DNA of 52,199 bases. Origin: Paracoccaceae bacterium. GTDB taxonomy: Bacteria; Pseudomonadota; Alphaproteobacteria; Rhodobacterales; Rhodobacteraceae. Positions 2,020 to 51,940 of this stretch are shown piece after piece. The stretch spans positions 1 through 52,199 of the forward strand of contig CACKSH010000011.1 in NCBI GenBank assembly GCA_902602765.1, given 5' to 3'. Position 1 is the stretch's first letter, and each line of letters starts with the position of its first letter. Under the pieces are notes generated by a model. The model did not search any database. It was not told where the DNA came from and saw only the letters and a program-made list of their open reading frames with translations. The translations under genes were made by a program, and so were the position numbers.

Positions 2020-3715
<1,696 letters not shown>

Positions 3716-5795: not shown

Positions 5796-5807
5796 TGTTC
5801 TAGAACA
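5796..5807. promoter_or_regulatory. 12-base perfect palindrome TGTTCTAGAACA
   Basis: A perfect inverted repeat followed by GTTTTTG, between the ends of two convergent genes. It could be a weak terminator for the plus-strand gene (4-5 bp stem) or a protein site. The stem is too short for a confident terminator call. Confidence 0.25.
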
Positions 5808-5846
5808 GTTTTTGTGCGATATTTAATTATTTAAAATCGTTGGAGT

Positions 5847-6152: not shown

Positions 6153-6358
6153 ACTAAACACCTTTTAACGATTTAAAACCAAATCACACATGACAGATTT
6201 GGGATAGAATTCAAGTTTAACTTAAAAATTTTGATCACACAATCTGAATAGCAGAATAGTTACAAGATATTTAACTAAGCGCCATTATGTTTATTTAATT
6301 CATATAAATATTACATTTGCCTTGCTATAAAAGTTATTAATTATAGATTAAAAGAACT
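6153..6358. promoter_or_regulatory. Divergent intergenic region bactofilin / moaA
   Basis: About 200 very AT-rich bases that should hold promoters for both flanking genes. I see no molybdenum-cofactor riboswitch fold, no convincing promoter boxes and no small gene. Confidence 0.3.
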
Positions 6359-7363: not shown

Positions 7364-7400
7364 AATAGAAAGACCAACTTTCTAAATACTTTGGCTGTTC

Positions 7401-8564
7401 CTAGCTTAATGGCATTCTTCTTTCAATTATTTCGGCCCACCAACTGCAACCAATTGATATTGCTTCGTCATTAAAATTATAGTTGGGATTGTGTACCGGG
7501 GCACTATCTCCATTTCCGATGAGAATATATGCACCAGGCCTCTCAATCGCCATATAAGAAAAGTCTTCACCCCCCATAACAAGAGGCGCATCTTCACAAT
7601 TACCACTAACAGACTTTGCAACAGAGGCAGCAAATTCAGTTTGCTCAACAGAATTTGTCATAACCGGATAACCTCGAGTATAGATAGGATTTACATCAGC
7701 CCCAAAGACATCGCCCGTCTTAGCTGAAATTTCGACTAATCTTTTCTCAGCAAGATCCCTCGTTGCAACAGACAGCGTCCTTACAGTTCCCCTAAGCACA
7801 ACAGTTTGGGGAATTACATTAAAAGCTTTCGAAGATGTCTCAAACGAGGTAACCGAAACGACAATTTGGTCAGTAGGATCAGCATTTCGACTGACAATTG
7901 ATTGTAATGCAATCACAATGTGCGATCCCACAACTGTCGGATCAACTGCTATTTGCGGCTTTGCCGCATGCCCGCCCAGTCCATTTATTGTAATTTCAAA
8001 AAAATCTGAAGCTGCAAAAAAAGGCCCTGATCTTATAGCAAATTTTCCAATTTCCAAATCGGGCCAGTTATGCATACCGTATACTTCTTGTATACCAAAA
8101 CGCTCCATTAACCCGTCTTCACACATTTCACGACCGCCGCCGCCGCCTTCTTCCGCTGGTTGAAAAATCACTACTGCAGTACCGTCAAAATTACGTGTTT
8201 CAGCTAGGTACTTGGCTGCGCCAAGAAGCATTGCTGTATGTCCATCGTGACCACACGCATGCATTGCCCCATCAACTGTTGAAGCATAAGATAATCCTGT
8301 TGTTTCTTCAATTGGCAGAGCATCCATATCAGCACGAAGTCCAATTACATTCTTGTTGGTATTTTCTCTTCCATGAATTACACCAACTACGCCTGTTCGC
8401 CCTAATCCAAAAACAACACTATCACATCCAAATGACTTAAGTTTTTGCTCCACAATTTTAGAAGTTCTATGGGTTTCAAATAATATTTCAGGATTGGCGT
8501 GAAAATCATGACGCCATTCAGTAATCTCCTCCTGCAATTCTGCAAAGCGGTTTTTTACAGGCAT
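7401..8564 (-). CDS. M20-family amidohydrolase (aminoacylase/hippurate hydrolase type)
   Basis: Zinc/manganese peptidase-fold amidohydrolase that cleaves N-acyl amino acids or related amides. The 387 residues include the metal-ligand motif MHACGHDGH (C104, H106), the PAEEGGGG segment with E138 and E139, a later MHNW His (about 165) and GGEDFSY near the C-terminus. The family dimerisation domain lies between. The ATG has AAAGGA about eight bases before it. It begins 21 bases after the double-ATPase gene on the same strand, and both face the substrate-binding protein and permeases. This suggests it hydrolyses what the transporter imports. The natural substrate is unknown; amino-acid amides, acylated amino acids and modified dipeptides are all possible. 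Confidence 0.92.
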   Translation of the reverse strand: MPVKNRFAELQEEITEWRHDFHANPEILFETHRTSKIVEQKLKSFGCDSVVFGLGRTGVVGVIHGRENTNKNVIGLRADMDALPIEETTGLSYASTVDGAMHACGHDGHTAMLLGAAKYLAETRNFDGTAVVIFQPAEEGGGGGREMCEDGLMERFGIQEVYGMHNWPDLEIGKFAIRSGPFFAASDFFEITINGLGGHAAKPQIAVDPTVVGSHIVIALQSIVSRNADPTDQIVVSVTSFETSSKAFNVIPQTVVLRGTVRTLSVATRDLAEKRLVEISAKTGDVFGADVNPIYTRGYPVMTNSVEQTEFAASVAKSVSGNCEDAPLVMGGEDFSYMAIERPGAYILIGNGDSAPVHNPNYNFNDEAISIGCSWWAEIIERRMPLS

Positions 8565-29115: not shown

Positions 29116-30102
29116 ATGGCCGATGGCTCTAAAATCATGGAAGGTAATCCAACTGAAGACATTTCCGTCAGGAAAGTTTTTGGTATTGATACAGATATGA
29201 TAGTAAAAGGCTTCTCAGAACGCGCTGCTCGAGTTCCTGAGGTTGATGAAACCTACAAATTTGATCCCGATACAACATTAGCCATTTTGGCAGGATTTTC
29301 CCACAATCGGCGGGTAATGATCCAGGGTTATCACGGGACTGGTAAATCAACGCATATTGAACAGGTTGCAGCAAGATTAAATTGGCCAGCAGTAAGAGTT
29401 AATCTGGACAGCCATATTAGCAGGATAGATCTTATCGGCAAGGATGCTATTAAGCTTAAGGATGGGAAACAAGTCACTGAATTTCATGAAGGAATTTTAC
29501 CATGGGCCTTAAGGAATCCAGTTGCAATTGTTTTTGATGAATATGATGCCGGTAGAGCAGACGTCATGTTCGTAATTCAGCGTGTGCTGGAACATGACGG
29601 GAAATTAACACTTTTAGACCAAAACGAGATAATAACACCACACAGTAATTTTAGACTGTTTGCTACTTCAAACACCGTAGGTTTAGGTGACACCACTGGC
29701 CTATATCATGGAACTCAGCAAATTAACCAAGCTCAGATGGACCGTTGGTCTTTGGTCGCAACTCTAAATTATTTGTCTATGGATGTAGAGAGCGCGATAG
29801 TTCTGTCCAAATCACCAAACTACAATACAGAAGATGGCAAAAGAATAATTAAACAGATGGTTACAGTAGCTGATCTTACCAGAACCGCATTTATGAATGG
29901 AGATTTATCCACCGTGATGAGCCCTAGAACTGTAATAAATTGGGCAAGTAATACGGAAATTTTCAACGATGTTGGGTATGCTTTTCGTCTAACCTTTTTA
30001 AATAAATGTGATGAGCTTGAGCGACAAATAGTTGCTGAATTTTTTCAACGTTGTTTTGATGAGGAGTTGCCAGAAAGTGCGGCAAGTGTCAGTGTGGAAT
30101 AG
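29116..30102 (+). CDS. cobS: Cobaltochelatase AAA+ subunit CobS
   Basis: AAA+ ATPase that, with CobT and CobN, inserts cobalt into hydrogenobyrinic acid a,c-diamide in the aerobic B12 pathway. The 328 residues contain Walker [10 protein letters not shown] (71-79), Walker [10 protein letters not shown], and the CobS-specific N-terminal [11 protein letters not shown]. The start ATG follows GAGGAAAAAATT. cobT begins 85 bases downstream on the same strand. CobN is not in the window. Note the older naming, in which E. coli CobS is an unrelated cobalamin synthase. Confidence 0.96.
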
Positions 30103-30187
30103 ATGAAGTTAACTATTGCCTACACTTAGTTACCATCTATCCGTAAATTAGTTGACCGGCAAAGCCTGAACCTTTCTCGAGTTTAAT

Positions 30188-32059
30188 ATGGTTTCAAAAT
30201 CAGATAATCCCGCTGATCCATTCAAAAAGGCCTTAGCTGAGGCGACGAAGGTTCTGGCGGATAATCCAGAGCTTTCTATTAACTACTCAATTGATCCATC
30301 GGGGCTCTCTGGTGATAATATCAGACTTCCCCAAGTCAGTAGGCGCATGACCAAAGACGAGGTGCTCCTAGCTCGAGGCACAGCTGACGCTCTCGCCATG
30401 CATCACAAATATCATGACTCTGAATTGCATTCACGATTTGCTCCTGACGGCCCAATTGCAAGAGAGCTATATGAAGCGATGGAAACTGCCAGATGTGAGG
30501 CCGTCGGCGCAAAGGATATGCCAGGCACAACCGGAAATATTAATGCAAAAATTGGTGTTGAAGCAAAACGAAAAGGTTTCGACAAGCTGACGGATCGAAC
30601 GGATGCCCCACTTTCGGATGCTGCAGGTTACTTAATCCGATCTTTAACTACCCACAAGGATCTTCCTCCATCAGCAAAGAACGTTTTAGATTTGTGGCGA
30701 GATTTTATTTTAGACCAGGCTGGAGCTACTTTAGAAAATCTAACTAACAACCTAGATAATCAAGAAAATTTTGCAAAGTTTTCTCGTCAAATAATTACTG
30801 ACTTGGGTTATGGTGATCAATTAGGTGACGATCCTGAGGCTGAGGACGATAACAATCAGGAAAACGAAGATGAAGATAATGAGCAATCCAATGATCCAGA
30901 AAGTTCAGGTACAGATGAGGATAATGACGATAATTTAGATGCAGACGATCAACAGAGCCAAGAAGAGCAACAGGATTCAGCACAGGCACAAATGAGTAGT
31001 GAAGACAGTGCCGATGAAGACCTTGAAGACCAGGAGTTGCCCGATGGAGAAGCACCCCTGGAGCCACCACCGCCGCAACCTATCTCTGATGCAGATCCAA
31101 ATTATAAAGTTTTTGAGATAAATTTTGACGAAGAGATTAAAGCTGAAGACCTTGCTGAACAAATTGAATTAGAAAGATTACGAGCATATTTAGATCAACA
31201 ACTTGAACCACTTAAAGGAGCCGTCAGTAGGCTTGCAAACAAGTTGCAAAGGAGACTTCAAGCACAGCAAAATCGTAGCTGGTTATTTGACCTTGAGGAA
31301 GGAATTCTTGATGCTGGCAGACTCGCTAGAGTTATAACTAATCCAACGACCTCTCTTAGTTTTAAAATAGAAAAGGATACTGAATTTAGAGATACGGTGG
31401 TGACATTACTTTTGGATAACTCTGGTTCAATGCGTGGCAGACCGATATCGATCGCAGCTATTTGCGCAGACGTACTAGCACGTACTTTGGAGCGTTGTAA
31501 TGTTAAAGTTGAGATTTTAGGATTTACTACGCGTGCTTGGAAAGGCGGTCAATCTCGGGAATCCTGGTTAAATCAGGATCGCCCACAACAGCCTGGCCGT
31601 TTAAATGATTTACGTCACATTATTTATAAAGGAGCTGACGCCCCTTGGCGCCGCGCACGTGCCAATCTTGGCTTGATGATGAAGGAAGGCTTGCTTAAGG
31701 AAAATATTGATGGAGAGGCTTTAGAATGGGCGCATAGACGCATGACAGCTCGCCCGGAAGCTAGAAAGATTTTGATGGTAATTTCCGATGGAGCTCCCGT
31801 AGACGATAGTACTTTATCAGTAAACCCAGCAAATTATCTCGAAAAACACTTACGAGATGTTATATCGATGGTAGAAAAAATTAAAAACGTTGAACTTTTA
31901 GCGATTGGTATTGGTCATGACGTGACGCGTTATTACGACCGTGCGGTTACTATAACAGATGTTGAGCAACTAGCCGGTGCAATGACTGAGCAGCTCGCTG
32001 CCCTATTTGATAGTGACCCCAAAGCTAGAGCTAGAGTTAATCAACTAAAAAGAGGCTAA
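30188..32059 (+). CDS. cobT: Cobaltochelatase VWA subunit CobT
   Basis: Partner of CobS in the aerobic cobalt chelatase. The 623 residues comprise an N-terminal domain (about 1-210), a very acidic Asp/Glu/Gln-rich linker at about 212-290, and a C-terminal von Willebrand A domain whose metal site is DNSGS (Asp410, Ser412, Ser414). This domain order is diagnostic for CobT and parallels magnesium chelatase BchD/ChlD. It lies 85 bases after cobS and six bases before the M24 peptidase gene, so the three may be co-transcribed. Confidence 0.96.
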
Positions 32060-41335: not shown

Positions 41336-42178
41336 TCAAATATAATTTTTTAAACTACCTACTTTATTTACATGAATTTCTAAATCGTCTCCAGCCTTTA
41401 GGAAGCGTTTTGGGCTAAAACTTGCCCCTGTTCCATCTGGAGAGCCAGTTGCTATAACATCTCCTGGATTTAAGGTCATGATACTGGAGATATAGGAGAT
41501 TTGTTCCTGTATACTGAAAATCATATCATTACTCGTAGCTTTCTGCACAACCTCCCCATTTAGAATTACAGTTAATTCTAGATCTCTCAGATCGGATAAA
41601 TCTTCCAAAGGCGTTATCCATGGGCCCCAAGACCCAGAACCAGAAAAGTTTTTGCCAGCATATATTGAATGCGACTGCCAATCGCGTACTGAACCATCGT
41701 TAAAGGCTGAGAACCCAAATATAAAGTTGTCTGCGGTAGAAACAGATACGTTTCGCGCTTGAGCTCCAATAACTACCGCTATTTCGCCCTCATAATCAAA
41801 GCTCTCAGAAGCATCTCCAGCAGGAATTTCTAGAGTTTCGTTGTGAGCCAGCAGCGCCTCACTATTTTTACCAAACAAAATTATATTTTCTGGATTGCTA
41901 AAACTTTTTCCGTCAACTGGATACGGTTTACGGTAATTCATGCCAATACACATAATTTTAGTTGGGTTAACAATCGGGGGCAAAAACTTTATTTTATTAT
42001 ACTTTAGCTTCGGCGTGCCCAATGCATTTTCATACATAAGTGGTATAGATTTTCTCTCAATTACTTCTCTTAGACTTCTGTATTCTCTAATGAAATCATC
42101 CGTAACGGATTGTGCCCAATCATCAAAAAATATTCCATAAGTTTCTTTTTCGTTTGTTACAAAGGATCCAATATTCAT
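41336..42178 (-). CDS. FAH-family hydrolase/isomerase
   Basis: Member of the fumarylacetoacetate hydrolase superfamily, whose members hydrolyse, decarboxylate or isomerise 2-oxo acids from ring-cleavage pathways. The 280 residues show the metal triad Glu130 and Glu132 (DYEGE) and Asp161 (FNDGS). IMCIGMNYRKP and ATGSPDGTG, typical of the FAHD1/ureidoglycolate-lyase-like group, are also seen. Its ATG overlaps the stop of the upstream reductase gene by one base (TAATG), so it is translationally coupled and the last gene of the six-gene minus-strand run. The partner genes suggest a catabolic acylpyruvate-type or lactone substrate. Specific activity unknown. Confidence 0.88.
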   Translation of the reverse strand: MNIGSFVTNEKETYGIFFDDWAQSVTDDFIREYRSLREVIERKSIPLMYENALGTPKLKYNKIKFLPPIVNPTKIMCIGMNYRKPYPVDGKSFSNPENIILFGKNSEALLAHNETLEIPAGDASESFDYEGEIAVVIGAQARNVSVSTADNFIFGFSAFNDGSVRDWQSHSIYAGKNFSGSGSWGPWITPLEDLSDLRDLELTVILNGEVVQKATSNDMIFSIQEQISYISSIMTLNPGDVIATGSPDGTGASFSPKRFLKAGDDLEIHVNKVGSLKNYI

Positions 42179-43110
42179 TATATCATATCAACAAATTGAT
42201 TTTCTCTATTAAGAATTAAAGCAGTCAAAGTTGCATTAAACGGTGTGGGAACTCCTACTTCCCTTCCAAGATTTGGAACTCTGCCATTTATAAACATAAT
42301 TTCTGAGCGTTTATTTGCCAGGTGATCTAAAAACATAGATGGACGAGCATTGCGAAGGTTAGCTCCAAATTTAGAAACATATTCAACCGGATCATTAAAG
42401 CTGAAGTCAATTTTTTTTGCTACTCCAATTTTATATGCTTCATACATTGCGCCCAATGCGATAGGCCATGCACTGGGATCATCCATCAGCTCACCGACGG
42501 TCTTTTCAAAAACCGTGCATGGTGCACTAAAAGTGACATTACATAAAAATTTTTCCCAAATCAGTTTTTGTATATCATGATAGGATTGGACATTGAACCC
42601 GGCCTTGACCCAATCGCTAGTGATTTTTTGAAGCCTTTCTGTGATTTCACCGGTAAGCTCACCAAGTCGTATAAGCTTCATCGCATTATGGTGAACATAA
42701 CCTGGATGTTTAACTGAGGCCCCAAAACCATCAGCCACACCTAAAACAATATGCTCACGCCCAATGAATTTTTCTAATTTTTCTTCTGCACCTAATCCAT
42801 TTTGGATTGTAACCACAGTGGTATTTGGCCCTAAAAATGGAGATATTTTTCTTGCAGCAGACTCGACGCCAGATGCTTTTGTGGCGATAATATAAAAACT
42901 ACAATCATCATGTGCTTTAAAAATACTGGAGGCTTTAATATTTTTTACAATGTAACATCCATCTGGATTTTCAATTAAAAGGCCATTTTCGTTGATCGCA
43001 TTGATGTGCTCAACCCATGGATCGTATGCAATCACTTCAAAACCAGAGGTGGCAAATAAAGCAGCATATATCGACCCCATTGCACCTAATCCAATAATAG
43101 CGACTTTCAT
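42178..43110 (-). CDS. Ketopantoate-reductase-like (PanE/ApbA) dehydrogenase
   Basis: NAD(P)-dependent 2-oxoacid or related reductase of the PanE/ApbA family; 310 residues. The dinucleotide motif is GLGAMG (7-12). The family's catalytic lysine region reads KLIWEKFLCNVTFS. The location inside a catabolic run, overlapping the FAH gene by one base and starting 12 bases after the MttB-family gene, argues for a dedicated dehydrogenase step rather than pantothenate synthesis. The true substrate is unknown. Confidence 0.85.
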   Translation of the reverse strand: MKVAIIGLGAMGSIYAALFATSGFEVIAYDPWVEHINAINENGLLIENPDGCYIVKNIKASSIFKAHDDCSFYIIATKASGVESAARKISPFLGPNTTVVTIQNGLGAEEKLEKFIGREHIVLGVADGFGASVKHPGYVHHNAMKLIRLGELTGEITERLQKITSDWVKAGFNVQSYHDIQKLIWEKFLCNVTFSAPCTVFEKTVGELMDDPSAWPIALGAMYEAYKIGVAKKIDFSFNDPVEYVSKFGANLRNARPSMFLDHLANKRSEIMFINGRVPNLGREVGVPTPFNATLTALILNRENQFVDMI

Positions 43111-43122
43111 AATATTTCCTGT

Positions 43123-44622
43123 CTAAATGCTAATCATTATGTCGAATTGTTTTCGAATTTGCGTATCAAAATCATTTGGAATGTAGTTAGGCCTATGTAC
43201 TTTCAACAGTTCTTCAACTTTTATTTTCGCGTTTGTATTTATATTTGGCTCTCCATTGGCTACCCAAGCCTCGTAAGCTTGTCTGTCGGCATTTTCCGGA
43301 TATACAAAATCTGTGCTCATTCTTTTAAAAGTCTCAGATTGTCCCAGAAAATGCCCCTCACCCTCCACTACGTTTTTAATTGTGTTCAAAGACATTGTAT
43401 CTTCACTTACTTCGATCTGTTTTCCAGAACTAAGGATCGCACCCAACATTTCATTATCGACCACGTAAGCCTCGAATGATGTTGCCATAAGACCAGCTTG
43501 GGTCCCAGCTGCTTGAGTAATAAGATTAGCTCCAGTTTGAACCGCCAGTGTTAAATTGAGAGCTTTCTCATAACCAGCCTGATTATCCGGAAGTTTGCTA
43601 TCGGTAGCCCCAGAAATTGTAGAATTAGCAAAATTATAATACTTCGCGAGTTGCACTGACGCTGCTGTCAACAAAGATTGCTCCCCACTTCCCCCAGCCA
43701 TACCACCTGTTCTCAAATCTGTAATCATTGGGCGTGCACCATATATGGCATTTACATCGTTATTTGCTAACCACGCCAAAATCATACCAGCCAAAGTTTC
43801 AGCATTCGTTTGAACCAAGCAACCAGCTATTGTTACGGGGCTCGAGGCACCCATTTGACCGAATGTATTTACCATAACCGGAAACCCAAGCCTCGATGCT
43901 TCAATTAAAACTTTGCATGACTCTGTATCAAATCTTAATGGCGGAACGACATGATTTATATTCAAGGACAAGAATGGTCTCTCATAAAAGTTTTCATTAG
44001 ACCCAGCAATGATTAAACATAATTCGTGCACCGTTTTGACATTGGCCGCATCACTAACGCTACTTATTACATGTTTCGAAGTTCCGACTAACGCAGCATA
44101 GGCGGTGTTAACGTCCAACATTAAACTTGATTTCATATCATTGGCCACCATAGGTCGCGCAAAAAAATGAATATTATCTAATTTATCAATCAAACGAGAT
44201 GCATCATATAAATCACTCAAGATTGATCGCCGAAAACTATGCGTAGACATGTCAACGATCATAGGTGATGCGCCCCCAGTGCCTGTATGAACTTTGCATC
44301 CGGATACATCTAAGTTTTGATCGTTATCCCGAGCGTACAAACTAAAGCTTTTCCTCAGATCAGATATTGCTTTATTCACTAATTTCTGGGGAAAAGTTAA
44401 CCGGCCGCTATCAGTCAACCTGCCCCCGTTGTCACAAACTAGCTTAATTGCTTCTTCTGGGGCGTCACTAAGACCTATCGTCTCCAAAATTTGCAAAGAT
44501 GCATCGTGTATTGAACACAACTGGGCCTCAGAAAAAAATTTCAGCCTACCAGTATTTGGTATTATCTTTTCTGCCGACTGGGAAACTCTTTTCTGCCGTC
44601 GCCTACGAGATTGATTAGACAA
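43123..44622 (-). CDS. MttB-family (COG5598) methyltransferase, no pyrrolysine
   Basis: Relatives move a methyl group from trimethylamine (MttB) or quaternary amines such as glycine betaine (MtgB) to a corrinoid protein. The 499 residues begin with a basic tail (SRRRRQKR) typical of alphaproteobacterial members. They continue with the family barrel (HTGTGGASPMIVDM, GGSGEQSLLTAASVQLAKYY, ISGATDSKLPDNQAGYEK). There is no in-frame amber codon, so it is not pyrrolysine-dependent MttB; it belongs with the non-Pyl group. The next gene upstream in the run is a DmdA-like folate methyltransferase. No corrinoid carrier gene is adjacent, which is unusual. Substrate unknown. Confidence 0.87.
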   Translation of the reverse strand: MSNQSRRRRQKRVSQSAEKIIPNTGRLKFFSEAQLCSIHDASLQILETIGLSDAPEEAIKLVCDNGGRLTDSGRLTFPQKLVNKAISDLRKSFSLYARDNDQNLDVSGCKVHTGTGGASPMIVDMSTHSFRRSILSDLYDASRLIDKLDNIHFFARPMVANDMKSSLMLDVNTAYAALVGTSKHVISSVSDAANVKTVHELCLIIAGSNENFYERPFLSLNINHVVPPLRFDTESCKVLIEASRLGFPVMVNTFGQMGASSPVTIAGCLVQTNAETLAGMILAWLANNDVNAIYGARPMITDLRTGGMAGGSGEQSLLTAASVQLAKYYNFANSTISGATDSKLPDNQAGYEKALNLTLAVQTGANLITQAAGTQAGLMATSFEAYVVDNEMLGAILSSGKQIEVSEDTMSLNTIKNVVEGEGHFLGQSETFKRMSTDFVYPENADRQAYEAWVANGEPNINTNAKIKVEELLKVHRPNYIPNDFDTQIRKQFDIMISI

Positions 44623-44694
44623 CTTAACTTCCTTTTTATAAACTATTTTTAATTTTAAACCTATTTGTTTGAATTTTGCGGGTGAAAATTTGGG

Positions 44695-45801
44695 TCAAAG
44701 AGGAAAATCTTTTATAGTGCCAATCATTTCAGAGCCATCCTGAACTTCAATTTTGACATTCTGACCTATGTTCCAATAATCTTTATTTACCATGCCTTGT
44801 GCTACATTTGCTTTTAGGCGGGGTGACCAAATTGCTGAAGTAATATTTCCGACGGCTTTCCCATTTGCATAGACACGCCAGGGTTTGGAGCAGGTTGGAC
44901 AAGGGGTTTCACCAAATACAAATCCTCTAATAATCTTTTGCACACCATTTTTGTAAATATCCAGCAATTTACTTTTTCCAATATACTCAATCGGTCCATC
45001 CAAATCACAAAATTTTTCCAAACCAATTTCAAATGGATTATTTGCAATTGTCATTTCATTTCCGTAAGAAAAAAGGCCTCCTTCAATTCGCTCAATTAGA
45101 TTTGGACAACCTGGCGCTATTTGATATGATTGTCCTTTTTTCCAAATTTTATCCCATAGAAAATTTGCATGAGCTTTACCCTTTAAATAAATTTCAAAAC
45201 CACCCTGACGCGAATAACCAGACCGAGCGATTAACTGACTGGACCCATTAACATCTATCCAATCAAACTTGAAAAACTCAATATTTTTTACATGCGCCCC
45301 AAAAATCTCAGTTAATAGTTTTTCCGCTTTCGGACCTTGCACAGCTAGCGGGTATACATCTGGCTCACTGACCTTAACATCAAGATTTCTACCAAAAGCG
45401 AGGCCTTTCGCGTAAAGTAGTACATCGCTGTCCGCAACTGATAACCAATATTTATCTTCAGAAAGTTTCAATAACACCGGATCATTAATTAACCCAGCAT
45501 TTTCGTCTATTAATGGAATATATAAACAATCACCAATCGCAGCATCGCCGATATTTCTTGGTGTCATCAATTGTATCAATCTCTGGGCATCTGGACCTTG
45601 GATTTCTACTTGTCGCTGGCAAGAAACATCCCAAATTTGAACGTGCTTCCTCAAATGCCAGTAATCCTCTTCAAGGGTCGACTGGAACGCTTTGGGTAAA
45701 AGCATATGATTAACGATAGAGAAACCAGAAACGCCTAATTTTTCTATCCGATCAGTATACGGCGTTCTTCGAAGCCTAATAGACATATTTAGACCATTCA
45801 T
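44695..45801 (-). CDS. DmdA-like GcvT-family tetrahydrofolate methyltransferase/demethylase
   Basis: GcvT-fold protein of 368 residues, resembling DMSP demethylase DmdA more than glycine-cleavage GcvT. From memory of the family, shared segments include VNHMLLP, HVQIWDVSCQRQVEI, LAVQGPKAEKLL, RSGYSRQGGFEIY and SYGNEMT. DmdA moves a methyl from dimethylsulfoniopropionate to tetrahydrofolate; related proteins demethylate N-methyl compounds. A CPTC pair near residue 295 is distinctive. The ATG at 45801 overlaps the upstream stop (TAATG), matching other junctions in the run; an ATG at 45786 is also plausible. DmdB/C/D genes are absent, so a true DMSP role is unproven. Confidence 0.82.
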   Translation of the reverse strand: MNGLNMSIRLRRTPYTDRIEKLGVSGFSIVNHMLLPKAFQSTLEEDYWHLRKHVQIWDVSCQRQVEIQGPDAQRLIQLMTPRNIGDAAIGDCLYIPLIDENAGLINDPVLLKLSEDKYWLSVADSDVLLYAKGLAFGRNLDVKVSEPDVYPLAVQGPKAEKLLTEIFGAHVKNIEFFKFDWIDVNGSSQLIARSGYSRQGGFEIYLKGKAHANFLWDKIWKKGQSYQIAPGCPNLIERIEGGLFSYGNEMTIANNPFEIGLEKFCDLDGPIEYIGKSKLLDIYKNGVQKIIRGFVFGETPCPTCSKPWRVYANGKAVGNITSAIWSPRLKANVAQGMVNKDYWNIGQNVKIEVQDGSEMIGTIKDFPL

Positions 45802-46136
45802 TAACGCGAGATCCATGTAGAATAGGAATAAGGGTTTATTATCACAGGAAGGTGATAAGAATTTTCTGCTTCACTTATTGAAAACCTTACGGCAATTTCG
45901 GCAATACCCCCGATTATGTTTTTCAATTTCCAGTACTCCGTCAACGAAAATACTAATTCACATGCCATTGAAGGATAAATATCTTCGGGTTTAATTTTCA
46001 AAGATAATCGCCCACCATCATCAGTTTCACCACTAACCAAAATCTTTTGCGACTTTAATTCCACAAGTCTGGCCGGGATTTTCCTAGCATGGGTTCCATC
46101 AGTACCATTTAGAATATGAGAGGTAATACTTGCCAT
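45801..46136 (-). CDS. Transthyretin-like/5-hydroxyisourate-hydrolase-like protein
   Basis: Small 111-residue protein with the HIU-hydrolase pattern. The N-terminal TSHILNG has His7, GGRLS has Arg43, and the C-terminal SYHLPVIINPYSYST has His95, matching three residues known to be catalytic in HIU hydrolases. The family's invariant C-terminal YRGS is here WISR, so the active site is altered at its end. HIU hydrolase opens the ring of 5-hydroxyisourate in urate breakdown. No urate oxidase or OHCU decarboxylase is nearby. It overlaps the ThDP enzyme gene by one base (TAATG) and touches the DmdA-like gene. I infer a related cyclic-amide hydrolase, but this is uncertain. Confidence 0.78.
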   Translation of the reverse strand: MASITSHILNGTDGTHARKIPARLVELKSQKILVSGETDDGGRLSLKIKPEDIYPSMACELVFSLTEYWKLKNIIGGIAEIAVRFSISEAENSYHLPVIINPYSYSTWISR

Positions 46137-47866
46137 TACTCAATCGAAGCCTTGTCCCTTTTATCTGAAGTTGCCGCTACAATCGGGCTGATGACTCCCC
46201 TACACTTTACATTGATACAAGCGGTCTTTCGACTTTTATAAGCTCTTTGAAAAGCGCCTGAAAGCTGCTCACGTTTTGTAACGAGCTCGCCAAATCCACC
46301 AAGACCTTCAAACATTTTATGAAAAGGAATATCACGAAAATCGGTTGCATAATGTTGACCACTTTCAAAAAGTCGTTCCTGTTGCTGACTAATGCAATCT
46401 AGACCCCCATTGTTATCAATTACAACAATTATTGGGGTAGACTCTTGAAAACAGGTCTCAACCGACAAGCCACCTGACAGAAATGCTCCATCACCTGTTA
46501 CCAAAACTACGTTAGTGTTTGGATGGACTCGTTTTGCAGAAAGCGCAAACGAAACTCCCACACCCAACAGACTATAGTTTCCTGGATGGAGTATGCCACC
46601 GAGCTTTCGTCCGCCAGCGGCGGCAATATTAGTAGCAATTTCATTCCAAAAATGCGTATTACCTCCATCAAAAACTAACCAGTCATCATCAGACATCATG
46701 GACTGAACATCCAACGCTAATTGCAAGGGATGCATTTTTCGATCAAGTTTTAGATCATTTTCGGTTTCTTTCTCAATATGTTCAGCCCAGTGAGCGACCC
46801 AGTTGGCTCTACGTTGTTTTTGCAAAACAAACCAGTCATCCCATGTCCTCTCAATTTTTATAAGCTCATTAAAAAAGGCTCCAGGATCTGATAATAACTG
46901 AATATCTGCACCAATATTATAGGCTAGCTCTTCGTGGCTTCCATTTACACAAACGAGTTTAGTATCTTTACTAATAAATGGTGGATTCCCAAAATTCATC
47001 TGGTTATCAAGCTTACATCCGACCATCAAAATAACATCCGCTTCTTGAATAGCTTCTTTAGAAGGGTGATATTGATGAAAATCTGCGAGACCCATCATGG
47101 CGCTGCAATCTTCTCCCAGTAACTTTGTGTGGTATGGAACGTTAAAGATTGGTATTTTTAATTTAGTTGCTGCCGAAGCTAGTGCTTGTTCTGTTTGCGA
47201 CCACCAAACTCCATGGCCACCAATTATCACTGGCCTATCACTTTCTCTTACCAAAGATAAAATGTTTGATAAATCAACCGGATTAGGCCAGGCTTTTAAT
47301 ACCGCCTTATCAGAACGATCAAAGGGACGCTCATTAAGTCCAGCATTTTTTTCAAATGAGGAAAACATTATATCGACCGGTAGTGAAATATGAACTGGTC
47401 CTGGATATCCATTAGTAGCAGTATGCCAAGCCCTATCTACAAATTCACTTATCCTTGACCCATCTGTAATTTGAACCGAGTATTTCGTTAATGGTTTAGC
47501 AATCGCAACATCATCTATTTCTTTAAAACCTCCAGCGCCTTGACGTTTAAGTGTCGATGATCCAGTTATGAAAATTACTGGTGATCGCTCCCCCCAAGCT
47601 TCCAGCATAGCTGGCACCGCGTTAGCGAAACCCTCCGGACCAACAAGACAAACCGTTGGTTTACGTGAAATTCTCGTGTGACCATCAGCAAGATGACCTG
47701 CTACTTGCTCGTGTGGACAATTTATAACAGGCATTTGGCATTCCATAAATCCTTCTAAAGCCGGATTACAAAACCCACCTGCCAACGTGAAAACATGGTC
47801 AACACCTTTTTCTCTAAAAGCTCTAGCCAAAATAGCGCCGCCACGAAGATGTGTTTTTTCTACCAT
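46136..47866 (-). CDS. Thiamine-diphosphate enzyme, acetolactate-synthase-like
   Basis: ThDP-dependent decarboxylase or carboligase of the AHAS/oxalyl-CoA decarboxylase superfamily; 576 residues. The activating glutamate is Glu53 in CPHEQVAGH. The ThDP-magnesium motif runs from GDG (458-460) to NN (485-486). Three domains are recognisable: PYR (about 1-180), a central domain (about 195-335) and PP (about 380-560). The retained Glu argues against glyoxylate carboligase, which has Val there. No small regulatory subunit is present. It heads the six-gene minus-strand run, with AGGAG about ten bases upstream of the ATG. A 2-oxo-acid substrate is likely; which one is unknown. Confidence 0.88.
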   Translation of the reverse strand: MVEKTHLRGGAILARAFREKGVDHVFTLAGGFCNPALEGFMECQMPVINCPHEQVAGHLADGHTRISRKPTVCLVGPEGFANAVPAMLEAWGERSPVIFITGSSTLKRQGAGGFKEIDDVAIAKPLTKYSVQITDGSRISEFVDRAWHTATNGYPGPVHISLPVDIMFSSFEKNAGLNERPFDRSDKAVLKAWPNPVDLSNILSLVRESDRPVIIGGHGVWWSQTEQALASAATKLKIPIFNVPYHTKLLGEDCSAMMGLADFHQYHPSKEAIQEADVILMVGCKLDNQMNFGNPPFISKDTKLVCVNGSHEELAYNIGADIQLLSDPGAFFNELIKIERTWDDWFVLQKQRRANWVAHWAEHIEKETENDLKLDRKMHPLQLALDVQSMMSDDDWLVFDGGNTHFWNEIATNIAAAGGRKLGGILHPGNYSLLGVGVSFALSAKRVHPNTNVVLVTGDGAFLSGGLSVETCFQESTPIIVVIDNNGGLDCISQQQERLFESGQHYATDFRDIPFHKMFEGLGGFGELVTKREQLSGAFQRAYKSRKTACINVKCRGVISPIVAATSDKRDKASIE

Positions 47867-48102: not shown

Positions 48103-49458
48103 ATGAACAATTTATGTTGCGGACCAGGTTACGCATCACCTACCGATGCCATAAATGCTCCGAGTGAAAAACTTCTCTATACCATAGCAATATATACCGG
48201 TACAGGGATCCAGAAACCAGATTATCTGGCAACTGTAGACGTCGACCCCGATAGTCATACCTACAGCCAGGTTATTCATAGGCTTGAAATGCCCGGAATT
48301 GGTGATGAGCTTCACCATATGGGCTGGAATGCGTGCTCTTCATGCCATGACGATAACTCAATGTCTCGAAAATATTTAATTCTTCCAGGAGTGCGCTCGA
48401 ATAATCTTCATATTGTTGATACAGCAACAGATCCTAAAGCTCCAAAACTCTATAAAGTTATTGAGGGAGCAGAAATTAAGTCAAAAGTTGATTTGTCCGG
48501 CCCTCATACTGTACACTGTCTTGGATCCGAAATAATTATTTCATTCCTTGGTGATGCCAAAGGTGAAGCACCGGGGGGTTATCTCCATTTAGATAAAGAT
48601 TTCAATATAATTGGTCGCTGGGAGAATTCCATGGGCGATATCAAGTTTGGATATGATTTCTGGTATCAACCACGTCACAATATCATGGTAAGTTCCGAGT
48701 GGGCTGCACCAAATACTTTTATGCCTGGTTTCGATCTGGAAGAAGTGGGTCACCTTAAGTATGGACGTGAATTACACTTTTGGGATTTTGAGAAACGAAA
48801 ACCAATAGAAAGTTTTTATTTGGGCGAAGACGGATTGGTCCCTTTAGAAGTGAAATTTCACCATAACCCGGATAGTACTCATGGGTTTTGTGGAGCTGCA
48901 CTTTCCACAAATGTTATACATTGGTGGAAAGATAATGATGAAAAATGGCAGTGGGAAAAGGTAATTGATATAGAAAATGAGATGCATCCAGAATGGCCAA
49001 TTCCACTCCCTGGCGTTATGTCAGCAATACTCGTTTCGATGGACGACAAGTACTTATATCTTAACAATTGGCTACACGGAGATATGAGACAGTACGATAT
49101 CACCGATCCTCATAAACCCGTACTTACAGGTCAAGTTTTTCTGGGTGGACTCTTAGGTAAAGCTCCAAAAGTCAATGGAGTTGAGGTTGCTGGTGGTCCA
49201 CAAATGTTCCAACTAAGCTTGGATGGGAAAAGGCTGTACGTAACGACATCTCTATTTTCAACATGGGACAATCAGTTCTACCCTGAAATACGAGAAAAAG
49301 GCGGTGTTATGATTCAGATTGATTGCGATCCAGTGAATGGTGGAATGAAAGTAAACCCAAATTTTATGGTAAACTTTGGTCAAGAACCAAATGGACCTAG
49401 CAGATGCCATGAAGCCCGCTACCCAGGTGGTGATTGCACAAGCGATATATGGTTATGA
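48103..49458 (+). CDS. SBP56 / methanethiol oxidase family protein
   Basis: Member of the selenium-binding-protein family, which includes bacterial copper methanethiol oxidase (MtoX: methanethiol to formaldehyde, sulfide and peroxide) and human SELENBP1. The 451 residues contain DELHHMGWNACSSC (His71, His72, Cys78, Cys81), SGPHTVHC, FHHNPDSTHGFCG and a closing RCHEARYPGGDC. These are the conserved His/Cys set thought to bind copper. There is no signal peptide, whereas characterised Hyphomicrobium MtoX is exported, so this copy may be cytoplasmic. A very strong ribosome binding site (TAGGAGG) suggests high expression. Its stop overlaps the ferredoxin start (ATGA). Confidence 0.9.
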   Translation: MNNLCCGPGYASPTDAINAPSEKLLYTIAIYTGTGIQKPDYLATVDVDPDSHTYSQVIHRLEMPGIGDELHHMGWNACSSCHDDNSMSRKYLILPGVRSNNLHIVDTATDPKAPKLYKVIEGAEIKSKVDLSGPHTVHCLGSEIIISFLGDAKGEAPGGYLHLDKDFNIIGRWENSMGDIKFGYDFWYQPRHNIMVSSEWAAPNTFMPGFDLEEVGHLKYGRELHFWDFEKRKPIESFYLGEDGLVPLEVKFHHNPDSTHGFCGAALSTNVIHWWKDNDEKWQWEKVIDIENEMHPEWPIPLPGVMSAILVSMDDKYLYLNNWLHGDMRQYDITDPHKPVLTGQVFLGGLLGKAPKVNGVEVAGGPQMFQLSLDGKRLYVTTSLFSTWDNQFYPEIREKGGVMIQIDCDPVNGGMKVNPNFMVNFGQEPNGPSRCHEARYPGGDCTSDIWL

Positions 49459-49820
49459 CAAAATATAAGGTTAAAATTTCAAACCGCGGGAATACGGAAT
49501 ATGAGGTGGATGACAAGCGACCAATATTAGATGAACTACGAAAGCATGGTGTGGACCTTCCTTACGGTTGCAAATACGGTGGATGCATAACTTGCGCCGC
49601 AAAGTTAACCGCGGGAAATATAGACCAGAGAAGACAAGTTGCTCTTAATAATTGGCAACTGGATAACGGCTACGTTATTTTATGTGTTGCGAGGGCAAGG
49701 TCGGACATTACATTAGAAATAGGTACCGAAAGTCATGACAAATTGTATCGCAATCCATTTTTAGAACCATTAAAATCATACCAGCTTAAGGCTGATATTG
49801 CGTCTAAGGAGGATACCTAA
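49455..49820 (+). CDS. [2Fe-2S] ferredoxin
   Basis: Plant-type ferredoxin of 121 residues with C39-x4-C44-x2-C47 and C77, the classical cluster ligands, and the DELRKHGVDLPYGC segment. It would carry single electrons. The ATG overlaps the SBP56 stop by four bases, so the two are translationally coupled. A longer frame inside SBP56 is rejected on that ground. About 25 residues follow the ferredoxin fold (PFLEPLKSYQ). Its redox partner is unknown; no reductase gene is adjacent. Confidence 0.93.
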   Translation: MTKYKVKISNRGNTEYEVDDKRPILDELRKHGVDLPYGCKYGGCITCAAKLTAGNIDQRRQVALNNWQLDNGYVILCVARARSDITLEIGTESHDKLYRNPFLEPLKSYQLKADIASKEDT

Positions 49821-50285
49821 TTGCCAGAAGCAGAAATAGATCGCATTTATGATTACGACCCAAGTTACCTCGCTGACATTCTAAAATCAGTAAAAACGAT
49901 TGCGATGGTGGGTGCTAGCGGCGACAAAACAAAATTTAGCTATGGAGTTTTACGACAACTAAGCGAAATAGGTTATGACATACTTCCTATAAACCCAAAC
50001 CCAGCAATTAAAGAAATACGTGGGCTTCGAGTTTACCGCTCACTTAAAGAAATTGAGAAACAAATTGATATGGTAGAAGTGTTTCGACCTGCAAACGAAC
50101 TCTATGGAATAGCTGAACAAGCTATAGAGGTTGGAGCAAAGGTCCTATGGGGGCAAATAGGTGTATATGACGACCGGGCTGCCGACTTGGCCGAGGCTGC
50201 AGGATTGAAAGTTGTTATGAACAGGTGTCCAAAGATCGAATTGTTTAGGCCCTTCTGGAAACCAAGGCTAGATCTCAAAATATAG
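49821..50285 (+). CDS. CoA-binding protein (CoA_binding_2, YccU-like)
   Basis: Rossmann-fold CoA-binding domain protein of 154 residues, resembling the N-terminal domain of acyl-CoA synthetases. Seen features are VGASGDKTKFSYGVLR, ILPINPN, VEVFRPANE and the conserved Cys in MNRCPKIE. It starts at TTG immediately after the ferredoxin stop, with AAGGAGG eight bases upstream, a good case for a true TTG start. Function of the family is unclear. In this operon it could recognise a CoA thioester produced or consumed by the pathway. Confidence 0.88.
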   Translation: MPEAEIDRIYDYDPSYLADILKSVKTIAMVGASGDKTKFSYGVLRQLSEIGYDILPINPNPAIKEIRGLRVYRSLKEIEKQIDMVEVFRPANELYGIAEQAIEVGAKVLWGQIGVYDDRAADLAEAAGLKVVMNRCPKIELFRPFWKPRLDLKI

Positions 50286-50364
50286 TATTGAAATGACTTC
50301 GGATTGGGAACTAAATACCCATAAAAAAAGCTTAAAGATATACACCAATAAAAAAAGGTACCAA

Positions 50365-50760
50365 ATGGGTCAAATTATAAGTTCGAGTGTAAAAAAAATT
50401 GTGAAAGAAGCTCTGGCTTCAGTGGACTCAATTTCAGTTCAGGAGGCTAAATCATTAATCGAGAACGAAAGATATCAATTTGTAGACGTTAGGGAATTAT
50501 CTGAACAACAAAATGTAGGAGTCATTCCAGGAGCTATTTTATCATCAAGAGGTATGATCGAATTCCATATTGATCCAGATAGTCCTTTACACAATTCTGA
50601 ATTTGCTCAAGAAAAAACTTATATATTTTATTGTGCTTCTGGCGCACGCTCAGCCCTAGCAGCCGTGGCAGCAAAAGATATGGGACTGAAGCCAGTTGTA
50701 AATATGGCCGGTGGAATTACAGAGTGGATAAAAAACAGCGGTTCAATTACGGATAGATAA
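50365..50760 (+). CDS. Rhodanese-domain sulfurtransferase
   Basis: Single-domain rhodanese of 131 residues with the DVREL entry motif and the active-site loop CASGARS, where Cys90 forms the persulfide. The ATG at 50365 has AAGG six bases upstream; an upstream ATG at 50293 lacks a ribosome binding site and would add 24 residues. Beside a methanethiol-oxidase-type protein it may handle sulfide-derived sulfur. It ends one base before the thiolase start. Confidence 0.88.
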   Translation: MGQIISSSVKKIVKEALASVDSISVQEAKSLIENERYQFVDVRELSEQQNVGVIPGAILSSRGMIEFHIDPDSPLHNSEFAQEKTYIFYCASGARSALAAVAAKDMGLKPVVNMAGGITEWIKNSGSITDR

Positions 50761-50761
50761 A

Positions 50762-51940
50762 ATGACCGATATATTTATCTCTTCGGCGGTAAGAACTGCC
50801 ATAGGATCTTTCGGCGGATCTCTTTCGAGCGTACCACTAATCGAACTTGCAACCCATGTGGGAAAGGAAGCGATTAAAAGGGCAGAAATAACTCCAGATA
50901 AAATCCAACAAACGGTGTTTGGAAATGTCATTCACACCGAACCTAGAGATATGTATTTATCGAGAGTAGCTGCTATCAACTCTGGAGTACCTCAAGAAGC
51001 ACCAGCTTTGACGTTAAATCGTCTCTGCGGTAGTGGTTTACAGGCTGTGATTACAGCATTTGAGCAAATCCTATTGGGCCGTTCAAACGTAAATTTGGCC
51101 GGAGGTGCGGAATCCATGAGCCGCGTGGGCCATAATTTGCAGTCAGCTCGATTTGGTCAGAAAATGGGACATGTGAAAGCAGTTGATATGATGACAGGAG
51201 CACTTACGGATCCGTTTGGGAACGGTCACATGGGAATTACTGCCGAAAATGTGGCAAAAAAAATGAGTATAACGCGACAAAGACAAGATGAACTTGCCTA
51301 TAATAGTCATCTGCGAGCTAGTAAAGCAATTAACGCCGGTTATTTTAAAGAACAAATTTTGCCTGTAGTAATCCAAACAGGTAAAAAACAAGAAGTTTTT
51401 GACACAGATGAGCACTTGCGAAAACAGGTAAACCTACAGGATTTAAGTAAACTTAAACCTGCGTTTGACCGCGACGGAACGGTCACCGCCGGCAATTCAT
51501 CGGGAATAAATGATGGAGCTTCTGCGTTAGTCCTTGCGAACAAATCTGCAATATCAAAGTACTCCATGCCTGTTATGGCTAAAATTATATCATGTGGGGT
51601 TGGAGGAGTGGCTCCGAATTTGATGGGTCTCGGGCCGATACCAGCGACAAGGGAGGCACTATCTAGTGCTGGACTAAACATTTCACAAATTGACTGTATC
51701 GAGTCAAATGAAGCATTTGCAGCGCAAGCTTGCGCTGTAGCAGACGAATTAGATTTTGATCCAGCCAAAACTAATCCAAATGGTGGAGCAATAGCTCTAG
51801 GGCATCCCGTGGGAGCGTCGGGAGCCATAATTTTGACCAAACTAGTTTACGAATTAAAGCGTCAAAATGGAAAATATGGTTTAGCGACAATGTGCATTGG
51901 CGGCGGCCAAGGCATCGCGATGATTATAGAGAATGTGTAG
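50762..51940 (+). CDS. Acetyl-CoA acetyltransferase (thiolase)
   Basis: Biosynthetic-type thiolase condensing or cleaving acyl-CoAs; 392 residues. Cys89 (LNRLCGSGLQAV), His348 (ALGHPVGASG) and Cys378 (TMCIGGGQG) match the three catalytic residues of bacterial thiolases. It begins one base after the rhodanese stop, the last gene of the plus-strand run before valS. It may feed acetyl-CoA from the catabolic products. Chain-length preference cannot be read from the sequence, so I give no specific symbol. Confidence 0.93.
   Translation: MTDIFISSAVRTAIGSFGGSLSSVPLIELATHVGKEAIKRAEITPDKIQQTVFGNVIHTEPRDMYLSRVAAINSGVPQEAPALTLNRLCGSGLQAVITAFEQILLGRSNVNLAGGAESMSRVGHNLQSARFGQKMGHVKAVDMMTGALTDPFGNGHMGITAENVAKKMSITRQRQDELAYNSHLRASKAINAGYFKEQILPVVIQTGKKQEVFDTDEHLRKQVNLQDLSKLKPAFDRDGTVTAGNSSGINDGASALVLANKSAISKYSMPVMAKIISCGVGGVAPNLMGLGPIPATREALSSAGLNISQIDCIESNEAFAAQACAVADELDFDPAKTNPNGGAIALGHPVGASGAIILTKLVYELKRQNGKYGLATMCIGGGQGIAMIIENV

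Follow-up and report, generated by a model that had tools for sequence, protein, structure and literature searches.

What compound is broken down by an operon that places two types of methyltransferase beside a ThDP-dependent enzyme, a HIUase-like protein, a reductase and a FAH-superfamily hydrolase? The question is raised by a locus of a Paracoccaceae bacterium, which lies in a stretch of 52,199 nucleotides from contig CACKSH010000011.1, here called the window. An initial annotation had described a catabolic set joining folate-type and corrinoid-type demethylases with the other four proteins, and this description is supported by the present analysis.

Six open frames, all on the minus strand, are present at 41336..47866 in the open-frame reading of the window. 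Three of them encode the ThDP-dependent enzyme (576 aa; 46136..47866), a small protein of HIUase/transthyretin fold (111 aa; 45801..46136; PF00576, 63.6 bits) and a DmdA-like predicted folate-dependent demethylase (44695..45816). The DmdA-like protein comprises 373 aa from 45816, or 368 aa if its start is placed at 45801. The other three encode an MttB-family corrinoid methyltransferase (43123..44622; PF06253), an ApbA/PanE-family 2-oxoacid reductase or 2-hydroxyacid dehydrogenase (42178..43110; TIGR00745) and the FAH-superfamily hydrolase (41336..42178; PF01557, 194.6 bits). One-base TAATG overlaps join the ThDP and HIUase-like genes as well as the ApbA and FAH genes. The HIUase-like/DmdA-like junction is a further TAATG with a start at 45801, or a 16-base overlap with a start at 45816. 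Gaps of 72 bases lie between the DmdA-like gene and the MttB gene, and of 12 bases between the MttB and ApbA genes. The MttB gene starts with TTG, preceded by an AAGGA-type ribosome-binding site. Frames, overlaps and gaps are thus as first annotated, and Pfam searches agree with the six family names.

The arrangement is more than chance. Three further genomes of the same genus carry the six genes in the same order, with 77-97% protein identity and, as far as their contigs extend, the same flanking genes. For the six-gene set, conservation of gene order beyond this genome had been named as a test. It is indeed kept beyond this genome, but the intact order occurs only in part of one genus, namely in the genome itself and these three, and is therefore narrow by that test. 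Instead, the entity conserved across genomes is a two-unit system, whose core is found again in further marine bacteria, and the six-gene operon is a fusion of its units A and B. Unit A consists of the ThDP enzyme, the HIUase-like protein and the DmdA-like protein, usually with an FMN-dependent 2-hydroxyacid dehydrogenase in front. Unit B comprises the MttB, ApbA and FAH genes and lies beside unit A in additional genera too.

The unit-A set comprises 33 genomes, of which 26 were found by the ThDP gene and seven by the HIUase-like gene; a named isolate carrying the gene set is Planktotalea frisia SH6-1. The ThDP and HIUase-like genes are adjacent in all 33 (26/26 among the ThDP-found genomes, the window's own included), and the DmdA-like gene follows in 31. 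The FMN dehydrogenase gene (PF01070, 410 bits in locus L011) lies upstream in 25 of the 32 assessable genomes. It is not found at the locus of the window lineage, where the ApbA-type enzyme may act as its stand-in. The ThDP-HIUase-like pair also occurs without either the DmdA-like protein or the FMN enzyme (G629, G575 and the named loci L024, L026 and L028), and so its reaction need not involve methyl groups. Locus L025 contains SBP56 and the FMN gene and has no DmdA-like gene.

The nearest solved relatives of the ThDP enzyme are 2-hydroxyacyl-CoA lyase/oxalyl-CoA decarboxylase and benzaldehyde lyase. Its mean column identity over 20 relatives is 81%, with invariant residues at the C-terminus. 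A curated equivalog of known reaction was sought for it as a ThDP 2-oxoacid decarboxylase or acetolactate synthase, and among the best 25 of 51 NCBIfam models listed none exceeded its cut-off. The gene order of unit A resembles the mandelate pathway, in which an FMN mandelate dehydrogenase acts together with a ThDP benzoylformate decarboxylase, as here the FMN 2-hydroxyacid dehydrogenase lies directly upstream of the ThDP enzyme. However, the ThDP subfamily is a different one, and it is followed by a HIUase-like protein and a demethylase rather than an aldehyde dehydrogenase. In unit B, the ApbA protein exceeds the cut-off of TIGR00745, a 2-dehydropantoate 2-reductase subfamily (216 versus 141), and no NCBIfam equivalog scored above cut-off for the FAH protein.

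The HIUase-like protein has the fold of 5-hydroxyisourate hydrolase, and His7, Arg43 and His95, which we take to be the catalytic set of that enzyme, are invariant in 20 of 20 aligned sequences. This set agrees with the earlier proposal that a methylated N-heterocycle or cyclic amide is opened by the HIUase-like protein, with which agmatinase-like (G164 and G136), HutF-like (G090) and peptidase S51 genes near some loci would also agree; Dpp-type ABC genes are a further nitrogen-type neighbour. The C-terminus differs, as the YRGS presumably typical of 5-hydroxyisourate hydrolases is replaced by W-x-S (W108 and S110 invariant, 20/20), an additional invariant DGTHA segment is present, and the score remains below the HIUase cut-off of TIGR02962 (65.8 versus 87.45). 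Furthermore, no ring-opening enzyme was found among the annotated neighbour clusters shared by at least three loci, whereas sulfur-linked clusters recur there, and uric acid genes are absent from the annotated neighbours, which form a part of all neighbours. Ring opening is accordingly considered improbable.

The DmdA-like protein passes the NCBIfam equivalog model for DMSP demethylase, NF009133, with 534.8 versus 410 bits. Because the standard model accepts it, it could be miscounted as DMSP demethylation in metagenomes. It is related to DMSP demethylase and not to the dimethylglycine enzymes. In the tree, the DmdA-like proteins form their own 32-row clade (support 100/96) and do not group with characterised DmdA. 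The adjoining roseobacter DmdA proteins form a separate 11-row clade, and both clades fall together with P. ubique DmdA into a 46-row group (99/96), in which the fork joining them is open. Clade-specific substitutions separate the two types: at position 32 of P. ubique DmdA, Tyr is present in 13 of 13 DmdA rows, versus Val in all 31 module rows with a letter there. The DmdA-like protein might still be just a second DMSP demethylase among unrelated passengers, as its NF009133 score and its occurrence among DMSP-type genes in some genomes would allow. Its separate clade, the residue at position 32, a further gene of the DmdA clade elsewhere in the genome and the constancy with which it follows the ThDP-HIUase-like pair make this very improbable.

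The MttB protein clearly belongs to PF06253 (360.9 versus 25 bits). It carries Ala339 (GCT) at the pyrrolysine site in one uninterrupted frame and falls below the cut-off of TIGR02369 (359.5 versus 525); neither this score nor the lack of an in-frame amber codon fits trimethylamine methyltransferase proper, which contains pyrrolysine. The window subfamily forms a 17-row clade of 14 distinct proteins (100/100) and shares at most 41% identity with the remaining MttB paralogues that these genomes encode. It is encoded in 21 of 33 unit-A genomes versus 3 of 33 phylogenetically unmatched controls (p 6.5e-6), or 13/22 versus 3/29 with one genome per genus (p 5e-4). Twelve of the 33 genomes encode the subfamily close to unit A, and 12 lack it at the threshold used. 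As a likely accessory, a RACo/RamA-like reductive activator of corrinoid proteins is encoded on the plus strand at 3701..5755 (PF14574, 289.5 bits; PF17651 and PF17650). A stand-alone corrinoid protein is present in the genome (G000:C1; PF02607 and PF02310), below the cut-off of TIGR02370 (172.7 versus 215.3). The genome therefore encodes the corrinoid protein and the reductive activator expected of a cobalamin-dependent demethylation system, and cobS and cobT of aerobic cobalamin synthesis (29116..32059, plus strand) could supply the cofactor.

Roseobacters use the MttB-family protein MtgB with shared MtgC and MtgD, and often have several MttB-domain genes of unknown substrate (PMC12478193). 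The R. pomeroyi system for glycine betaine demethylation is similar in its pyrrolysine-free methyltransferase, and the stand-alone corrinoid protein and RACo have counterparts here, but the window MttB belongs to a separate subfamily linked to the ThDP unit. The function-assigned MttB-family proteins named in PMC12478193 demethylate quaternary amines, and the MttB protein therefore does not speak for sulfur. The substrate is perhaps a quaternary ammonium compound instead of a sulfonium compound. It could resemble carnitine or be a betaine that contains a hydroxy- or oxo-acid moiety; the DmdA-like and MttB proteins would then remove N-methyl groups from it, with the sulfur genes as bystanders. 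In G172, BKACE and an over-cut-off carnitine 3-dehydrogenase follow the ThDP-HIUase-like-DmdA genes, and beside the G371 cluster lies a gene nearest to betaine-aldehyde dehydrogenase, though under cut-off. Such a substrate appears rather unlikely in view of the DmdA-like protein's kinship and of the sulfur-linked genes described below.

Divergent from the operon, the window encodes an SBP56 protein of the methanethiol-oxidase family (48103..49458, plus strand; Pfam SBP56, 686 bits), which is below the MtoX cut-off of NF052453 (152 versus 650). On the same strand follow a 2Fe-2S ferredoxin directly behind it (49434..49820), a CoA-binding domain protein (49821..50285), a rhodanese domain protein as candidate sulfane-sulfur handler (50293..50760), all three from family searches, and a thiolase-like protein named by eye (50762..51940), whose cluster also lies near unit A in L119, L121, L124 and L126. 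Window-type SBP56 occurs in 24 of 33 unit-A genomes versus 2 of 33 controls without unit A (p 2.5e-8), and in 16/22 versus 2/29 with one genome of at least 90% completeness per genus (p 1.1e-6); these controls are likewise unmatched, and shared ancestry may lie behind part of the co-occurrence. The four window-type genomes have SBP56 close to unit A, as do G745, G764 and Nitratireductor; nine of the 33 genomes lack a full window-type copy.

Other neighbours of unit A include a DddQ-like lyase (PF16867), a second DmdA over cut-off at L020, together with an acyl-CoA synthetase that misses the methylthiopropionyl-CoA ligase cut-off (302 versus 822), and a homocysteine S-methyltransferase in G371, where an extra GcvT-family protein remains below the DmdA cut-off (179 versus 410). 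Enoyl-CoA hydratase and acyl-CoA dehydrogenase genes are neighbours elsewhere, and in P. frisia (L127) both adjoin SBP56; the 388-aa acyl-CoA dehydrogenase type, searched with its relative in L044, matched no DmdC-named model. SBP56, the DddQ-like lyase, the DmdA kinship, the homocysteine methyltransferase, the dehydrogenase and the hydratase shift the weight towards a sulfonium. This is a shift rather than a reversal, because S-compounds and DMSP loci were among the options first listed; the stress on N-heterocycles and ring opening is not upheld, as the neighbourhood evidence mostly favours a sulfonium, although some loci have nitrogen-type neighbours.

With a probability of about 0.5, the operon serves to degrade an osmolyte-like substrate, namely a small zwitterionic 2-hydroxy acid with a methylated onium group. 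The most likely candidate is a dimethylsulfonium relative of DMSP other than DMSP itself. By chemical fit, 4-dimethylsulfonio-2-hydroxybutyrate (DMSHB) is the best-fitting known metabolite. Gene content, conservation, co-occurrence, phylogeny and the corrinoid-machinery genes form the observed basis of the pathway, for which we propose the following substrate, order of steps and reactions of the ThDP, HIUase-like and FAH proteins. Oxidation of the 2-hydroxy acid to a 2-oxo acid would fall to the FMN dehydrogenase in most lineages, and the window lineage would use its ApbA-type enzyme for this step. The ThDP enzyme would then decarboxylate the 2-oxo acid to an aldehyde or acyl product, which the HIUase-like protein may hydrolyse or relay. 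Subsequently, the DmdA-like protein would transfer an S-methyl group to tetrahydrofolate, and the MttB-like protein a further onium methyl group to the stand-alone corrinoid protein, which would be reactivated by the RACo-like protein and pass the methyl group to folate. A 2-oxo or 2,4-dioxo intermediate would be processed by the FAH protein. Methanethiol released downstream could be oxidised by SBP56, with rhodanese and ferredoxin handling the sulfur.

The initial annotation knew of no named pathway with this gene set, and none of the papers listed in literature searches describes such a set or pathway in its title or abstract opening. It would be a new pathway built from known enzyme families. 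With DMSP demethylation/demethiolation (DmdA, DmdB, DmdC, DmdD and methanethiol oxidase) it shares a DmdA-family folate demethylase, an adjacent SBP56 and, in P. frisia, the dehydrogenase and hydratase genes. It differs in the clade of its demethylase and in the added ThDP, HIUase-like, 2-hydroxyacid dehydrogenase, MttB and FAH proteins. DsyD, the DMSHB decarboxylase of DMSP synthesis, consists of a PF04115 domain that is joined with a methyltransferase in one fusion protein (PMC11306096). With DMSHB as the substrate, DsyD and the proposed pathway would have this metabolite in common, but none of the six operon proteins contains PF04115.

Phytoplankton produce sulfonium zwitterions besides DMSP, and the pathways through which marine bacteria consume DMSA and gonyol have been described as unrecognised (PMC7221440). 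The present analysis offers a concrete candidate gene set, which the named isolate P. frisia SH6-1 also carries, and suggests functions that can be tested for an MttB subfamily and for a HIUase-like family whose function is unknown. The DmdA-like clade is diagnostic for telling this gene set from true dmdA in metagenomes. More tentatively, bacteria may possess a pathway devoted to DMSHB or to a comparable sulfonium 2-hydroxy/2-oxo acid. It would lead through oxidation, ThDP decarboxylation aided by a HIUase in a new role, and the removal of methyl groups by a new DmdA clade and its partner MttB subfamily to methanethiol. Outside DsyGD, the DMSHB decarboxylation step has been described as lacking so far (PMC11306096). 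If such a pathway exists, its oxidation-decarboxylation pair could perform a DMSHB-to-DMSP-type conversion, for which the enzyme is unknown in most organisms, and marine organosulfur cycling would have a branch that had so far gone unrecognised.

The window is contig C11 of a genome of 1.85 Mb that is 82% complete and whose close relatives are classed under Rhodobacteraceae. The six genes named in the initial annotation are present on the minus strand from 47866 to 41336, and their families were confirmed by Pfam: a ThDP enzyme, an HIUase-like protein, a DmdA-like protein, an MttB-family methyltransferase, an ApbA reductase, and an FAH hydrolase. The ThDP/HIUase-like and ApbA/FAH junctions were read directly as one-base TAATG overlaps. 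The DmdA-like gene starts at a further TAATG at 45801 or, alternatively, at 45816 with a 16-base overlap; 72 bases separate it from MttB, and 12 bases lie between MttB and ApbA. The six-gene order is kept in three more members of the genus (G200, G203, and G208), with proteins that are 77-97% identical. The divergent group encoding SBP56 (methanethiol-oxidase family), ferredoxin, a CoA-binding protein, rhodanese, and thiolase is also kept there up to the contig limits.

The HIUase-like gene occurs in nine of the 16 genomes of the genus examined, as part of the six-gene form in four of them. In the remaining five (G164, G198, G199, G207, and G210), there is a ThDP-HIUase-like-DmdA-like block without attached MttB-ApbA-FAH genes in the stretch read, the contigs of G199 and G207 ending upstream of the block and within the DmdA-like gene, respectively. 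In four of the five, an FMN-dependent 2-hydroxyacid dehydrogenase precedes the block. Given this distribution, the exact six-gene operon looks like a local fusion. The annotated set stands as regards its real, conserved parts, but its six-gene form is the fused form, found in one genus, of a wider system. This system consists of unit A (the FMN dehydrogenase where present, ThDP enzyme, HIUase-like, and DmdA-like proteins) and unit B (MttB, ApbA, and FAH). It is real, conserved, made of known enzyme families and, as far as searched, undescribed. No plasmid-borne annotated relatives were found at E 1e-100.

Unit A extends well beyond the genus. A search with the ThDP protein at E 1e-200 or better matched 21 of 394 genomes of the family, six of 385 of the class, and two of 398 of the phylum, the window's own genome being counted in each. 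The unit-A set comprises 33 genomes, own genome included, 26 found via the ThDP protein and seven members of the genus via the HIUase-like protein. The HIUase-like gene adjoins the ThDP gene in 33/33 (26/26 of those found via ThDP), and the DmdA-like gene follows it in 31/33, being absent there in G575 and G629. The FMN dehydrogenase, assigned to PF01070 in the one member tested, lies directly upstream of the ThDP gene in 25 of 32 genomes, G199 being set aside because its contig ends; the seven without it are the four genomes with the six-gene form ("window-type"), G172, G575, and G629. Presence and place in 32 genome loci were taken from tblastn, and HIUase-like presence from a separate search at E 1e-6 or better. 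The tblastn queries for the HIUase-like protein and for some FMN, DmdA, MttB, Ldh2, and DddQ proteins included same-locus proteins, so that 100% identities are self-matches; presence and place were used, identities were not. The ORF caller had missed short or overlapped frames: the HIUase-like gene in L010, L012, L013, L025, L026, L028, L029, L042, L045, L120, L121, L126, and L131, and the DmdA-like gene in L046 and L063, truncated by the contig end in the latter.

A further 25 named loci were chosen by their HIUase-like gene; they partly overlap the 33 genomes and were kept out of those counts. The ThDP gene lies alongside in 25/25, the DmdA-like gene in 21/25 (not in L024, L025, L026, and L028), and the FMN gene, as viewed by the ORF caller, in 17/25. 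Carriers include SAR116 and Planktotalea frisia SH6-1. Three closely similar stretches, L020, L022, and L023, come from bins labelled Neomarinimicrobiota, Sulfurimonas, and proteobacterium, and for this contig one or more of these assignments are probably incorrect.

The ThDP protein is conserved to its last residue, with a mean column identity of 81%, compared to 60% for the HIUase-like protein. Its nearest PDB entries are 2-hydroxyacyl-CoA lyase/oxalyl-CoA decarboxylase and benzaldehyde lyase. As no curated model among the best matches listed names its reaction, we infer decarboxylation of a 2-oxo acid from the FMN dehydrogenase partner. In 20/20 aligned sequences, the HIUase-like protein retains the HIUase residues His, Arg, and His, which we take to be catalytic. 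It scores below the HIUase model cut-off, and its tail carries W-x-S in place of YRGS. Breakdown of uric acid or methylxanthines, prompted by the HIUase fold, was rejected on this changed tail motif and on the absence of uricase, OHCU decarboxylase, and allantoin genes among the part of the neighbours given family searches.

The DmdA-like protein passes the DMSP-demethylase model, and its nearest solved structure is P. ubique DmdA. In a 49-row tree, which predates the last batch of unit-A loci and leaves those out, it falls in a 32-row clade (support 100/96) beside an 11-row clade of roseobacter copies that are predicted to be DmdA by model scores of up to 691 bits. The own genome holds a fragment of this second clade at a contig end. 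P. ubique DmdA, a long branch, joins at an unresolved fork. At the site numbered 32 in P. ubique DmdA, Tyr stands in 13/13 DmdA rows (P. ubique itself, the 11-row clade, and two further copies grouped by the author, one row lacking the site) and Val in 31/31 DmdA-like clade rows with a letter. Trp197 was dropped as a diagnostic residue, as Tyr also occurs there in several roseobacter DmdA rows.

The complete MttB-ApbA-FAH trio of unit B is present in the four window-type genomes, G001, G136, and G764. In G001 it is convergent with unit A and accompanied by an Ldh2 gene, while G597 has MttB and ApbA, FAH not being found at the threshold used. A relative of the window's MttB (51-100% identity) is present in 11 of 13 genomes searched and lies near unit A in 10 of these, the exception being G164; paralogues in those genomes show 41% or less and are sited away from unit A. 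The MttB subfamily forms a 17-row clade (14 distinct proteins, support 100/100), whose single unlinked row is that of G164. It was drawn from the tree and searches, as single-linkage clustering at 33% would merge paralogues. At E 1e-125 or better, it was found in 21/33 unit-A genomes vs 3/33 without unit A (p 6.5e-6), or 13/22 vs 3/29 with one genome per genus at >= 90% completeness (p 5e-4), and 12 of the 33 have it close to unit A.

The window's MttB lacks pyrrolysine, having Ala339 at the site and one open frame. An Rfam PYLIS_3 match at 43509-43606 of the window, minus strand (41.2 vs a gathering cut-off of 38), lies in this gene without an amber codon and looks like MttB-homologue coding sequence triggering the model. 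The own genome encodes a stand-alone corrinoid protein and CobS/CobT, and a RACo/RamA-type corrinoid activator is located in the window at 3701-5755 on the plus strand, about 37 kb from the MttB gene. Together, these proteins cover many of the requirements of a corrinoid methyltransferase. The MttB and corrinoid machinery match the MtgBCD system of R. pomeroyi as presented in PMC12478193. Its authors also report that bacteria of this kind carry as many as seven MttB-domain genes, and they suggest further methylated substrates.

The window-type loci lack the FMN dehydrogenase and have ApbA in the operon. The best FMN homologue of the own genome (42%; L179, contig C7, 93473-94543) has another gene context, adjoining two small ThDP-enzyme-like halves that appear by eye to be a sulfopyruvate decarboxylase pair. 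It was therefore not counted as a unit-A partner located elsewhere, although it may still act as one, and L179 is perhaps a second hydroxy-acid/ThDP cluster. ApbA may replace the FMN dehydrogenase in window-type genomes. As NCBIfam files this ApbA in a 2-dehydropantoate 2-reductase subfamily, a pantoate role is also compatible with its sequence.

As to the substrate, a sulfonium compound is the main reading, with a probability of about one half. Window-type SBP56 (over 700 bits) occurs in 24/33 unit-A genomes vs 2/33 controls (p 2.5e-8; 1.8e-7 when a third control with a broken copy is counted), where the controls are the first unit-A-negative same-family genomes in the list, unmatched by phylogeny, and nine of the positives belong to one genus and five to other families. 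With one genome per genus at >= 90% completeness, the counts are 16/22 vs 2/29. SBP56 is absent from G575 and G629, which also lack the DmdA-like gene, while G024, G142, G198, G210, G371, G597 (fragment), and G708 (fragment) lack a full SBP56 despite having the DmdA-like gene. SBP56 is found close to unit A in all four window-type genomes as well as in G745, G764, and the Nitratireductor locus L025, which contains no DmdA-like gene. In G764, SBP56 comes last in a row after acyl-CoA dehydrogenase and enoyl-CoA hydratase; in DMSP demethylation, enzymes of these kinds release methanethiol and oxidise it. Next to unit A in L010-L013 and L127 is a DddQ-like lyase (PF16867 in L011, the others by clustering). 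In L020, unit A adjoins a second DmdA over the cut-off and an acyl-CoA synthetase that scores below the methylthiopropionyl-CoA ligase cut-off (302 vs 822). The G371 row (L116, 6163-14013) comprises homocysteine S-methyltransferase, a GcvT-family protein below the DmdA cut-off, FMN dehydrogenase, ThDP, HIUase-like, DmdA-like, OsmC, and a gene of the enoyl-CoA-hydratase cluster. L116 holds several methyltransferase types in a single cluster.

Two side observations concern SBP56. A second SBP56 of the own genome (contig C2, 39654-41006) is 45% identical and of a type also present in several unit-A-negative Rhodobacteraceae. In G036, which is rated 100% complete and showed no ThDP unit at the threshold, there are nevertheless an MttB of 60% and a window-type SBP56 of 89% identity; loss of unit A, or use of both genes without it, is possible.

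Several observations count against the sulfur reading. The window's SBP56 falls below the MtoX cut-off, MttB-family members of known function prefer amines according to PMC12478193, and some loci have nitrogen-type neighbours (agmatinase-like, carnitine dehydrogenase with BKACE, and HutF). The agmatinase-like and HutF genes would also suit arginine or histidine derivatives as substrate, a rival that is retained, but they occur in few loci. In L049 (G090), a PhyH-type dioxygenase and formimidoylglutamate deiminase (HutF) lie directly downstream of the DmdA-like gene (4765-7124). In L047 (G172), BKACE and a carnitine 3-dehydrogenase with a thioesterase domain closely follow the ThDP-HIUase-like-DmdA-like genes (4963-8493), which suggests a connection with carnitine or with a sulfonium counterpart.

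For the sulfonium reading, the enzyme types of the operon suit a methyl-onium 2-hydroxy acid as substrate. The FMN dehydrogenase would convert the 2-hydroxy acid to a 2-oxo acid, and ThDP-dependent decarboxylation would follow. One known acid of the sulfonium 2-hydroxy type is 4-dimethylsulfonio-2-hydroxybutyrate (DMSHB). Enzyme knowledge of DMSHB decarboxylation is still lacking outside DsyGD, according to PMC11306096. DMSA and gonyol were degraded by the bacteria tested in PMC7221440, with methanethiol formed in some, and DMSA is reported there not to be used by DmdA. Proximity of a mandelate-racemase gene to dddQ found no confirmation in the literature searched.

The initial annotation knew of no named pathway with the six-gene set. 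None was announced in a title or abstract opening among the matches listed in the literature searched, which covered few subscription journals or bioRxiv preprints, and no work naming at least two of HIUase, MttB, and FAH together was found in the open literature searched.
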